50,870 nt of DNA from Candidatus Kapaibacterium sp. (GTDB taxonomy: Bacteria > Bacteroidota > Ignavibacteria > Kapaibacteriales > NICIL-2). The notes beneath the pieces are model-generated. The model was given only the letters and a program-made list of their open reading frames with translations. It had not been told where the DNA came from and did not search any database. The stretch lies in assembly GCA_025055755.1 (NCBI GenBank), contig JANWWF010000009.1, forward strand, positions 1 through 50,870. Reading direction: 5' to 3'. Both the position numbers and the translations under genes were made by a program. Of the stretch, positions 4,060-8,151 are shown in pieces. Numbering within the stretch: position 1 is the first letter of the stretch; each line of letters starts with the position of its first letter.

Positions 4060-4482
4060 TTATTCGCATGGTGGCTGGTAGTTTACAGCGCTAGCCCACG
4101 AAGCAAAGTCTCGAAAGCATTGACTGTCAGGTAGTATTTCATACCCGATCCTAGTGGTCCCGCCTATTTCCTCGTAAAGATGAAATCGGACTCGAGAAAA
4201 TCCAATTCCTGAACATTGATTGGGATTTCCATTATCGAAAAAGAAGACTGCGAAAATATTACCCTCTATTTGCTGCATCGTTGCGTAGAAGCTCATGCAC
4301 ACAACATTATACGGAGGAAGGCAAACCACCCATTCGCTACAGTCGGTATTAACAATTACCGACTTTTTGCCCATTATTAAGACCGCCTTTTTGCAGTCAC
4401 ATTCTGCCGTCGGTGTAGAGGCTTTTAGTTGAATCCCTTGCATAATTAACGCAAGAAGTGCTAACTGGATAATTCTCCTCAT
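4060..4482 (-). CDS. Small secreted Cys-containing protein
   Basis: Unrecognised 140-residue protein. The start at 4482 gives a clear signal peptide (MRRIIQLALLALIMQGIQLKAS); the longer frame to 4521 only adds a polar leader. The mature part has about eight cysteines (CDC, DCSEWVVCLPP, VVCMS, NQCSGIG, QCFRD, PPCE), suggesting disulfide bonds in the periplasm or outside. No lipobox and no T9SS domain are seen. Its leader contains the long inverted repeat described separately. The partner downstream is the thioredoxin-like/propeller-like gene, an arrangement similar to the Cys-rich plus T9SS pair at 46.7-49.2 kb. Confidence 0.6.
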   Translation of the reverse strand: MRRIIQLALLALIMQGIQLKASTPTAECDCKKAVLIMGKKSVIVNTDCSEWVVCLPPYNVVCMSFYATMQQIEGNIFAVFFFDNGNPNQCSGIGFSRVRFHLYEEIGGTTRIGYEILPDSQCFRDFASWASAVNYQPPCE

Positions 4483-4517: not shown

Positions 4518-4612
4518 GCAAGTGCGCCGCAGTCGAGTGTTCACAAAATGCACTAAATAGCAGCGACTGCGGGAACTACCATATAGTGCACTTTTGTGAA
4601 CAAAACACTTGC
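4518..4612 (-). other. Long inverted repeat with alternative pairing in the leader of the Cys-rich gene
   Basis: Read on the minus strand, arms at 4601-4576 and 4560-4539 form a hairpin of roughly 20 pairs (GTTCACAAAA/TTTTGTGAAC, then TGCACTA/TAGTGCA with a bulge). Outside it GCAAGTG (4612-4606) can pair with CACTTGC (4524-4518). The hairpin loop also holds CCGCAGTCG (4572-4564), a perfect 9-bp match to CGACTGCGG (4535-4527) downstream of the hairpin. Three nucleotides cannot bridge a 20-bp helix, so the long hairpin and the 9-bp helix should exclude each other, as in an attenuator or switch. It lies 36-130 bases upstream of the Cys-rich gene start. Function is unknown. Confidence 0.55.
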
Positions 4613-4665
4613 TTTCCAAAAGGAATATTCCATGACTGCGTAAAGATGTTACATTTAGGTTCTGC

Positions 4666-5025
4666 TTACTTCTCTGAACCACCCAGCAACGACACAATCG
4701 TTTCTACCTGCTGCTTTGAGGAGCATCCTGCGTTGTAGAGAATTTTTCCCTCTGCAATGACGACAACCGTTGGAAAGCCCTGGATTTTGTAGCTCTGCAT
4801 AATCTGGGGCGTCAGTTTGCCATGGGAAAATGGCACCACTGCAGCGGCTGGGAGAAGAGTGCTCCCATCAGCACGCAGGAGGATGATTGTTGCTTTTTTT
4901 GCTCGGCAGCAATGCGATCAAGAAGCCGAGGATACCATAGTTTGCATAGGCTGCACGTGGTGCATTCACAAAGGATGCAACGCGGACTGCGTTGCAGTAA
5001 TGCAATGGAGCAATAAAAGAAAAGT
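4666..5025 (-). pseudogene. Frameshifted thioredoxin-like gene
   Basis: Conceptual translation across three frames gives a thioredoxin-like domain. VRVASFVNAP (to about 4958) leads into CSLCKLWYPRLLDRIAAEQKK (from 4955), then ATIILLRADGSTLLPAA, and finally SYKIQGFPTVVVIAEGKI down to a stop at 4668-4666. CSLC is a CxxC redox motif and GFPT carries the cis-proline of the fold. Each of the two breaks would be repaired by one extra base: one near 4956, the other in a run of seven A at 4900-4894 (minus strand). No convincing ATG is present. It could be a true pseudogene or an assembly with two indel errors; the A-run position makes error or slippage possible. Plus-strand reading frames in this stretch are shadows. 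Confidence 0.62.
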
Positions 5026-5026
5026 G

Positions 5027-5527
5027 TTACAGTACTGCAGAACGAAGCTTAGAAAGTATCCGGTGGTGCCGGACCCGTATGCTGCACTCGCTTAGAGATT
5101 GCTCGGTTGTGCTCAAACGCTGTGCTATTTGACCGAAAGTCAGTGCTTCCCAATAGTGGAGATAGAGTAGCAATCGTTCAAATTCGGTGAGCTGGCGAAA
5201 AAGGGCTTCAAGGGTGAGTGCTGCATCCAATTGTTCAGTAGGATTGTAGGTGGCTTCGGGGCAAAGCCCACATGCTCTGTCTTCGAGAGAGGATTTTCCG
5301 CTGTTGTCCAGATAGCTGAAGTTGTCATCAAGTTTGAATTCCCATCTTCCTTTGGAACGGAGGGTGTGGAGAGTACAGTTTTTTAGCGTGTCCCACATCC
5401 ACTTTGATTCATCAGTCCCGAACGGAACGTTGCGAGAAGTGAAGGCTAAGCTCGTCACTCAATCCAGTTGTTGTGACCATACATATAGCCAGCGCTGTGT
5501 GTTGAATGCAGTGCATGCATCGGACAT
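5027..5527 (-). pseudogene. ECF sigma-factor-like remnant
   Basis: The C-terminal half resembles sigma-70 region 4: ALFRQLTEFERLLLYLHYWEALTFGQIAQRLSTTEQS has the usual helix-turn-helix pattern. Ahead of it WMWDTLKNCTLHTLRSKG recalls region 2.4. Most of region 2.1-2.2 is missing. The frame opens at ATG 5527, meets a TGA at 5461-5459, and restarts at GTG 5458, so either a 143-residue product is made from the GTG or the gene is dead. A full ECF factor is usually about 160-190 residues. It sits just upstream of the broken thioredoxin-like gene, supporting general decay of this segment. Assignment to sigma factors rests on one motif region. Confidence 0.45.
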
Positions 5528-5923: not shown

Positions 5924-8151
5924 CAACCACTACCGCGGCAAAAACATCAGCAGGCGCAACGCTGCCGACCGTTGTTGAGACCTTCCCTGTCGTTGGCATC
6001 ACCTGTGCTGCCTGTGCCCGATCCATCGAGTCGCTTTCCCGGTCAGTCCAAGGAGTGTATCGCGCCGAGGTCAATAGTGCAGCTGCAACGGTAACGCTTG
6101 AATACGATCCGCTGCAAGTCCAGCCAGACGATGTTGCGGCAGTGCTTCGCCCCTTTGGGTATGAGCTGGTGCATGCTGCTGTTCCTGCAACCGCACTTGC
6201 CGAGGCTGCAGAGCGCGAGCAGCACATACATCGCAAGATGAGAAACAACGCCATCGGTGCTGCGTGTGCAACACTACCAGCAGTCGCACTGGCAATGAGC
6301 CCGTGGCACATGGAGCGGTGGGCTGTCGTTGTAAGCGCGCTGAGTGCAACAATTGCGGTCATAGGCTTTGGACGAGATTTTTTCATCCGCGCGTGGTCGC
6401 AGGTGCGCACCGGTGCCCTGGCAATGGATACCCTCGTTGCCCTTAGTACGGGTATTGCCTGGGGCTGGAGTATGATTGCCACTGTTGCAGCTGATACTCT
6501 TGCCGCCAGAGGGATTGAGCCGCACGTGTACTTTGAGTCTGCTGCAACGATAGTCACCTTTATCCTGGTGGGCAAGTACTTGGAGCACAGGGCTCGATTG
6601 CGCACAAATGCAGCGCTGACGGCGCTGGTAGCTCTGCAGCCGCAGGTAGTACATCGCGTTGAAGACGGACAGACCAAGGATGTGCCTCTTGCCGAGGTGC
6701 AGCGGGGCGATTGGATTACGGTGTTGCCCGGCGAACGGATACCAGTTGATGGCATCGTTCTCGATGGGCATTCGTGGATTGATGAACAGATGCTCAGCGG
6801 TGAGTCGTTGCCTGTCGAGAAAGGACCAGGCAGTCGCGTCTATGCAGGGACGCTCAATGGTGATGGCACAATAACAATCGAAGCACGGGCAGTCGGCGCT
6901 GGAACATTTTTGGGGAGTATGATCCGTGCTGTCGAGCGTGCACAGTCGAGCAAGCCTCCTATCCAACAGCTTGCCGACCGCATTGCAGCAGTCTTTGTGC
7001 CTGTGGTACTGGTGATTGCTGCGCTAACGTTGGCGGGATGGATTCTCCTTGCACCGGATAAAGCAAGCACTCTTGGTTTACTTTCAGTGATTTCGGTGCT
7101 CGTGGTTGCATGTCCCTGTGCACTGGGTCTTGCAACGCCGACAGCAATTGCTGTTGCACTCGGGCGTGCGGCACGCCAGGGAATCTACGTTCGCGATGGG
7201 CGTGCATTCGAGGCGCTTGCACGTGTGCAGCATGTAGTCTTCGATAAGACGGGAACACTCACGCGCGGACAGCCATCGGTCGTCGAAGCTCGCTGGTATG
7301 TCGGCGAACAAGAGCACCGGTATGTGGCTTTTATTCAATCGGTGCTCCAGCGGTCTACACATCCGCTTTCTCGTGCCCTTGCACAGTGGCTTGGCGGTAA
7401 TGCTGAAGGTGACTTTGCAGTTGAGCAACATCGCGGGTTAGGATTGCGCGGATGGAATGCAGAGCATACTCTGCTGGTGGGCAATCGTGCATTTCTCGAA
7501 CAGCACGGTGTTGCGTTGCCCCCGTTGGAGGAAATAGCAGCTTCGGAAGTGCTCGTTGCCCTCGATGGCAAGCTCATTTTCGCTGCATGGCTGCGCGATC
7601 GCGCGCGAGAGGACGCAGCAGCTACTATTCGTATGCTCCGTGAGCATGGAATCACGACGCACCTTGTCAGTGGGGACCGTCGCCAGTCGGCAGAGCAATT
7701 GGCTGCAGAGCTGGATATCGAGCACGTCTATGCTCCTGCGCTCCCGCATCAGAAGCAAGAGTACATTCGCTCTCTTCGTACGCAAAGCGACGGTGCTGTT
7801 GTCATGGTGGGCGATGGAATCAACGATGCGCCCGCTCTTGCCGAAGCAGATACAAGTATCGCCTTAGGCACAGGAAGCGACGTCGCCGTTCACGCCGCGG
7901 ATGTTACAATCGTCGGGGAGCAGCTGATGCCAATTGTTCATCTTCTTGCTCTTTCGCGGCGCTTGCGGCGAACAATCCGACAGAACTTTGCATGGGCGTT
8001 TCTGTACAACCTGGCGCTCATCCCAATTGCTGCAGGCGTGCTCTATCCTGTTGCGGGCATCCTGCTCCATCCCATGTTTGCCAGCATTGCGATGGCAGCA
8101 AGTTCGATTTCGGTCGTCACAAATAGTCTCCGTTTGCAGCAAGGAGGATGA
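5920..8151 (+). CDS. copA: Cu(I)-exporting P1B-type ATPase
   Basis: Inner-membrane pump that uses ATP to move Cu(I) out of the cytoplasm. In order, the 743-residue protein has one N-terminal HMA domain (GITCAAC, Cys29 and Cys32), transmembrane helices, the actuator-domain LSGESLPVEK, the ion-binding CPC of CPCALGLATPTAIAVALG, the phosphorylation site DKTGTLT, the hinge GDGINDAPALAEAD, and final helices with FLYNLALIPIAAG and MAASSISVV. The YN and MxxSS residues in the last helices are the family's Cu(I) selectivity signature. It overlaps copZ by 4 bases, giving a two-gene copper-resistance operon. Confidence 0.95.
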   Translation: MTTTTAAKTSAGATLPTVVETFPVVGITCAACARSIESLSRSVQGVYRAEVNSAAATVTLEYDPLQVQPDDVAAVLRPFGYELVHAAVPATALAEAAEREQHIHRKMRNNAIGAACATLPAVALAMSPWHMERWAVVVSALSATIAVIGFGRDFFIRAWSQVRTGALAMDTLVALSTGIAWGWSMIATVAADTLAARGIEPHVYFESAATIVTFILVGKYLEHRARLRTNAALTALVALQPQVVHRVEDGQTKDVPLAEVQRGDWITVLPGERIPVDGIVLDGHSWIDEQMLSGESLPVEKGPGSRVYAGTLNGDGTITIEARAVGAGTFLGSMIRAVERAQSSKPPIQQLADRIAAVFVPVVLVIAALTLAGWILLAPDKASTLGLLSVISVLVVACPCALGLATPTAIAVALGRAARQGIYVRDGRAFEALARVQHVVFDKTGTLTRGQPSVVEARWYVGEQEHRYVAFIQSVLQRSTHPLSRALAQWLGGNAEGDFAVEQHRGLGLRGWNAEHTLLVGNRAFLEQHGVALPPLEEIAASEVLVALDGKLIFAAWLRDRAREDAAATIRMLREHGITTHLVSGDRRQSAEQLAAELDIEHVYAPALPHQKQEYIRSLRTQSDGAVVMVGDGINDAPALAEADTSIALGTGSDVAVHAADVTIVGEQLMPIVHLLALSRRLRRTIRQNFAWAFLYNLALIPIAAGVLYPVAGILLHPMFASIAMAASSISVVTNSLRLQQGG

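Follow-up and report, generated by a model that had tools for sequence, protein, structure and literature searches.

A structured and probably functional element of no recognized class before small secreted-protein genes of Candidatus Kapaibacterium sp. and a sister species

The window, that is, the whole stretch of 50,870 nucleotides analyzed here, carries a real, constrained and unclassified element of which two members are known, one in the window and the other in a sister species, and which is probably functional. It combines a defined anatomy, a constrained core, and arms whose pairing has been maintained, with the same position before small secreted-protein genes in two species. Most likely, it is a structured leader hairpin that presents an invariant recognition site made of a loop and a bulge, its main rival being a site that works as folded DNA. 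In its full form, the preferred reading is that the operon of a small secreted protein carries in its 5' leader a structured element that is functional and restricted to the genus; it is put forward tentatively, at slightly less than even confidence.

The gene behind the element is on the minus strand, with its ATG at 4482, and for this reason the minus strand is the leader strand of interest; the features are collected in Table 1. The initial annotation had described a hairpin of about 20 pairs, a 9-bp helix, and a 7-bp closing helix, and an inverted-repeat search recovered all three: a perfect 7-bp closing helix (4518-4524/4606-4612), a perfect 9-bp helix (4527-4535/4564-4572) that competes with the long hairpin, and the long hairpin itself, which starts with 11 perfect base pairs (4538-4548/4592-4602), followed inward by a one-base bulge and 7 further pairs. 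On the minus strand, wobble pairs raise the long hairpin to 26 pairs, and the 95 nt fold at -40.4 kcal/mol into an 8-pair closing helix enclosing this hairpin, with a 10-nt loop. The two segments named core 1 and core 2 in Table 1 contain, respectively, the 5' and the 3' half of the competing 9-bp helix. Upstream of the element, at 4634-4640, there is a third copy of the core 7-mer (CGCAGTC on the minus strand), which can pair with the 3' core segment and is not conserved in the sister species.

Table 1. Features of the element and of the gene module behind it, in window coordinates
Feature	Positions	Strand	Basis or remark
Whole structured element, 95 nt	4518..4612	-	Fold z -4.3; one relative; single copy
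Closing helix P1, 5' arm (gene-sense)	4606..4612	-	Wobble pair no. 8 adds 4605
Closing helix P1, 3' arm	4518..4524	-	Wobble pair no. 8 adds 4525
Long hairpin P2, 5' arm	4575..4602	-	Inverted-repeat search, folding
Long hairpin P2, 3' arm	4538..4564	-	Inverted-repeat search, folding
Core 1, apical loop, TCCCGCAGTCGC	4563..4574	-	Identical in G003
Core 2, 3' bulge / 3' strand, CTCGACTGCGGCGC	4524..4537	-	Identical in G003
Small Cys-rich gene, signal-peptide-like start, 140 aa	4060..4482	-	ORF; 35 nt behind element
Second gene of module, 502 aa	2533..4041	-	ORF; no Pfam family above cut-off

Taken singly, the perfect arms are unremarkable, because the window holds four inverted repeats of at least 11 bp within 90 nt and a shuffled sequence about one; it is the combination of helices, rather than the single arms, that exceeds chance. 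A 131-nt region around the element folds at -45.3 kcal/mol on the minus strand (z -4.3), a value that none of 200 shuffles reached, and at -39.4 kcal/mol on the plus strand (z -3.8). When the core was held fixed, 2 of 1000 shuffles of the element folded equally well (z -3.6), and 1 of 1000 in the case of the relative (z -4.4).

This relative was found with a covariance model that had the window sequence as its single input, which returned one full-length match among 61 genomes, with a score of 29 bits, in G003, another species of the same genus (G003:C100:6218-6314; record JAOAEV010000006.1, Chlorobiota bacterium SKW269). As in the window, histidine ammonia-lyase and rRNA genes are found nearby, at a distance of about 4 kb from the match, and genes for an ECF sigma factor and a thioredoxin-like protein lie in the interval; this shared chromosomal position is evidence, independent of the score, that the match is real. 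Orientation and position are also common to the two copies, which precede the ATG of a signal-peptide gene by 35 and 44 nt, and the stretch from the element to this ATG has a weak similarity in the two species, equaled by 59 of 5000 shuffles.

Between the window and G003, not one of the 26 letters of the two core segments differs. By comparison, the neighboring ammonia-lyase is 84% identical at the protein level and only 36.5% identical at its fourfold sites, so that the core is strongly constrained; given this fourfold-site identity, the chance of a 26/26 match is about 4e-12. Of the 71 aligned columns that lie outside the core, the two sequences share about 30.

The arms have diverged in sequence while their pairing has been kept. 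All eight pairs of P1 are present in G003, three of them with changes on both sides, and in a slide control P1 was 100% paired in register versus 24-54% when slid, with the caveat that the structure under test derives in part from the same sequences. The P1 covariation value was reached in 53 of 500 letter shuffles; being based on two sequences, it involves few events and cannot be statistically strong, and of the two tests the slide control carries more information. The inner half of P2 adds further two-sided changes, with an internal mismatch at the same place, as read by hand from an alignment of two independent folds. The outer half differs in architecture (11 pairs in one copy, 5 plus 4 with internal loops in the other), and the long hairpin of G003 has been rebuilt with new sequence. 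The initial annotation had proposed a covariance search in relatives, with compensatory changes in all three helices before homologous genes as support for a regulatory RNA. Such changes were found in the closing helix and, after realignment, in the inner part of the long hairpin; the 9-bp helix is invariant, and the downstream genes are not homologous.

Further members were sought widely. In the element's own 2.33 Mb genome, blastn and covariance models found no copy besides the element itself; one blast match overlapping the 5' arm (on contig C103) falls inside a coding gene and was dismissed as chance. No convincing DNA-similarity match was obtained in 60 relatives, plasmids, and phages beyond the element itself, and covariance models gave no further member in 123 genomes of the order or in 395 sampled from the phylum. 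A search with the core pattern over 85k species produced 96 matches, and only that in G003 fits the models; the same pattern had 59 matches in viral contigs, none convincing under a covariance model, and the exact-arm pattern had no match in the viral and genome collections. With Rfam 15, nothing reached the gathering score in the window and nothing convincing appeared up to E 5 for the element or its relative, in agreement with the earlier view that no recognized class applies. Together with the compensatory changes, the absence of scattered copies supports the initial proposal of a structured element before the gene. As for other palindromes, a group of 40-60 kb phage contigs carries a recurrent 41-nt palindrome, CCGCAGTCG...CGACTGCGG, accompanied by ACTGCGGTAAGG repeats (e.g., L125:11304-11344 and L135:4748-4788), which has only the 9-mers in common with the element.

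Regarding the genes behind the element, the 140-aa Cys-rich protein belongs to no Pfam or NCBIfam family and has a weak homologue in G059, there too before a second gene, and the 502-aa protein looks propeller-like by eye. No homology links the genes behind the two copies, both of which encode small secreted proteins: that of the window is part of a pair made of a small-protein gene and a second gene, also present in G059 and resembling the arrangement in G001, and that of G003 is part of a pair of small-protein and thioredoxin-like genes seen in G016 as well. Where homologues of either gene occur elsewhere, the element is absent. The element models matched nothing in G001, G059, or G016, and the examined leaders of G016, and those of G001, where a small secreted gene also precedes a second gene, fold no better than shuffles; G005 has the ammonia-lyase in its neighborhood and no convincing match to the element. 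Since the genes behind the copies differ and their homologues elsewhere lack the element, the latter is tied to a locus within the genus and not to a gene family.

The surroundings of this locus have features of their own. Immediately upstream of the element, the window contains two decayed-looking remnants on the minus strand, one thioredoxin-like (4663-5000; C-terminal part, 50% identical to a 656-aa protein of G003), and the other of an ECF sigma factor (5027-5458; region 4). In G005, the copper ATPase is separated from the ammonia-lyase by a second heavy-metal P-type ATPase (L188:6917-9085), so that the gene content of the region varies across the genus. In G003, a DUF3078-like gene (L019:3204-3219 region, around minus 3250) appears to be split into two frames at a C run, the cause being a genuine frameshift or a mistake in the assembly.

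If the element is a leader RNA, it would be transcribed and would act at the RNA level, with the transcript folding into a closed rod composed of P1, P2, the apical loop TCCCGCAGTCGC, and a 3' asymmetric bulge CTCGACTGCGGC. The arms would need only to pair, which would leave their sequence free to change, and the two single-stranded core segments would need their exact letters, as expected of the part that is recognized. The simplest partner would be an RNA-binding protein or a trans-acting RNA, which would set mRNA stability or translation. For a little-studied group of the Chlorobiota, this would mean a candidate class of regulatory elements linked to operons for secreted proteins.

The strand that folds better is not the same in the two members. 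In the window it is the gene-sense strand, with five G-U pairs; in G003 it is the antisense strand (-52.7 vs -46.1), with four G-U pairs there. The strand test is thus contradictory and does not prove an RNA, and the argument for a sense-strand RNA from G-U pairs was dropped, as G003 shows the reverse. The leader reading is also weakened by the lack of homology between the genes behind the two copies and by the absence of the element before their homologues elsewhere. A promoter scan placed no promoter immediately before the element and gave a weak promoter-like match on its downstream side. G003 also contains a perfect 37-nt direct repeat (L019:2179-2215 and 6295-6331) that spans the 5' flank, the 5' arm of P1, and part of P2, with one copy falling within the element, at the end of the contig, and the second preceding the ammonia-lyase, on the opposite side of a 4-kb module.

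The differing downstream genes and this repeat leave room for a role at the DNA level, which we consider a serious alternative of clearly lower probability. The element would then be a folded or palindromic DNA site, such as a recombination site, the end of a mobile element or a replication hairpin, at which downstream gene modules would have been exchanged; the inverted CCGCAGTCG copies would be protein contacts, and the arms would form a hairpin in single-stranded DNA. In accordance with such a site, the two copies share a chromosomal neighborhood and have different gene modules behind them, the strand preference is inconsistent, the 37-nt repeat of G003 recurs on the far side of the module, and the two loci have the sigma factor and thioredoxin-like genes in a different order. 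Against it, no recombinase gene is seen beside either copy, each genome has a single copy, and the conserved ends of attC sites are absent. Moreover, the window has no counterpart of the 37-nt repeat, nor a partial copy of the element before its ammonia-lyase, and the repeat of G003, lying at a contig end, could be an assembly artifact. If such a site exists, it would represent a new way of exchanging secreted-protein modules, and under either reading the invariant pair of loop and bulge provides a short core that is directly testable.

Pairing in the arms may also be kept by a process other than selection on structure, because template switching can both create and repair stem pairing (PMC8794818). 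In this case, only a short core of two inverted 9-mers would be functional, and template switching at a replicating quasi-palindrome would maintain the complementarity of the arms, as would fit the lack of a strand preference and the different architecture of the outer half of P2 in the two copies. We regard this as unlikely, since at saturated divergence two separate helices have stayed in register around a core that is invariant, for which selection on the fold is the simpler explanation.

The initial annotation had also taken the competition between helices as the mark of an attenuator, a riboswitch, or an anti-terminator. In the 9-bp helix, the apical loop pairs with the strand that follows the hairpin, and with a rod of at least 20 pairs and almost no linker, geometry suggests that this helix and the long hairpin are alternatives and do not coexist; the same geometry led to the rejection of a loop-to-strand pseudoknot formed within one molecule while the long hairpin persists. 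A bistable switch agrees with the use of the apical loop by both helices, which makes them mutually exclusive, and with the invariance of both 9-bp halves in two species. However, the fold with the 9-bp helix forced is less stable than that with the long hairpin, by 11.9 kcal/mol for the window sequence and by 9.1 kcal/mol for G003, and prefix folds have the rod complete before the last strand is transcribed. The pairing of the start-codon region is unchanged between the two states (0.45 vs 0.44; 0.56 vs 0.56), and terminator prediction gave no call within the element or behind it. In addition, the 9-bp helix, being invariant, has no covariation by which its pairing can be judged, and Rfam has no match. 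The energy gap of 9-12 kcal/mol, the unchanged accessibility of the start, and the missing terminator make, in silico, a bistable attenuator improbable, and an internal riboswitch or attenuator is neither needed nor supported.

Nevertheless, the invariance of both 9-mers calls for a reason: a protein or a second RNA may recognize them, or they may pair across two molecules. In a more speculative scheme, to which we assign a low probability, the loop and the basal bulge of the rod would be displayed as invariant single-stranded segments complementary to each other, able to pair between two molecules and not within one; the element would act through a head-to-tail RNA-RNA dimer, or through the synapsis of folded single DNA strands, marking the site where secreted-protein modules are exchanged, and would be of a previously undescribed kind.

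Lastly, the element can be placed beside systems already known. The SAM-II and preQ1-II riboswitches are H-type pseudoknots, in which the hairpin loop pairs with the 3' strand; the element likewise has a loop complementary to the strand just 3' of its hairpin, but it has no Rfam sequence match, and with a hairpin of at least 20 pairs and almost no linker, its geometry implies that loop and 3' strand cannot pair while the hairpin stands. MITE and REP-type repeats are short intergenic palindromes with a terminal inverted repeat, a description that the element shares; unlike them, it occurs once per genome, its arms are strongly diverged between copies, and no clear target-site duplication was noticed, and an assignment to MITEs or dispersed palindromic repeats was rejected because blastn and covariance models found no multiple copies in the genome. 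Integron attC sites, defined by AAC and GTT conserved at the two boundaries (PMC2727003), are imperfect palindromes of similar length whose arms are complementary with little sequence conservation, as is the case here; the element instead ends in GC...GC, has its conserved letters in the loop and the basal bulge, and exists as one copy outside any array, and attC identity was rejected because the AAC and GTT boundaries are absent in both sequences. Finally, comparative genomics has uncovered unclassified structured motifs in 5' leaders, such as Chlorobi-1, Chlorobi-RRM, and Lnt (PMC2864571). The element differs from these in standing outside all Rfam families, in having two members only, and in a strand preference that differs between these members, and it resembles them in being a short intergenic structure of narrow phylogenetic range with no known ligand.
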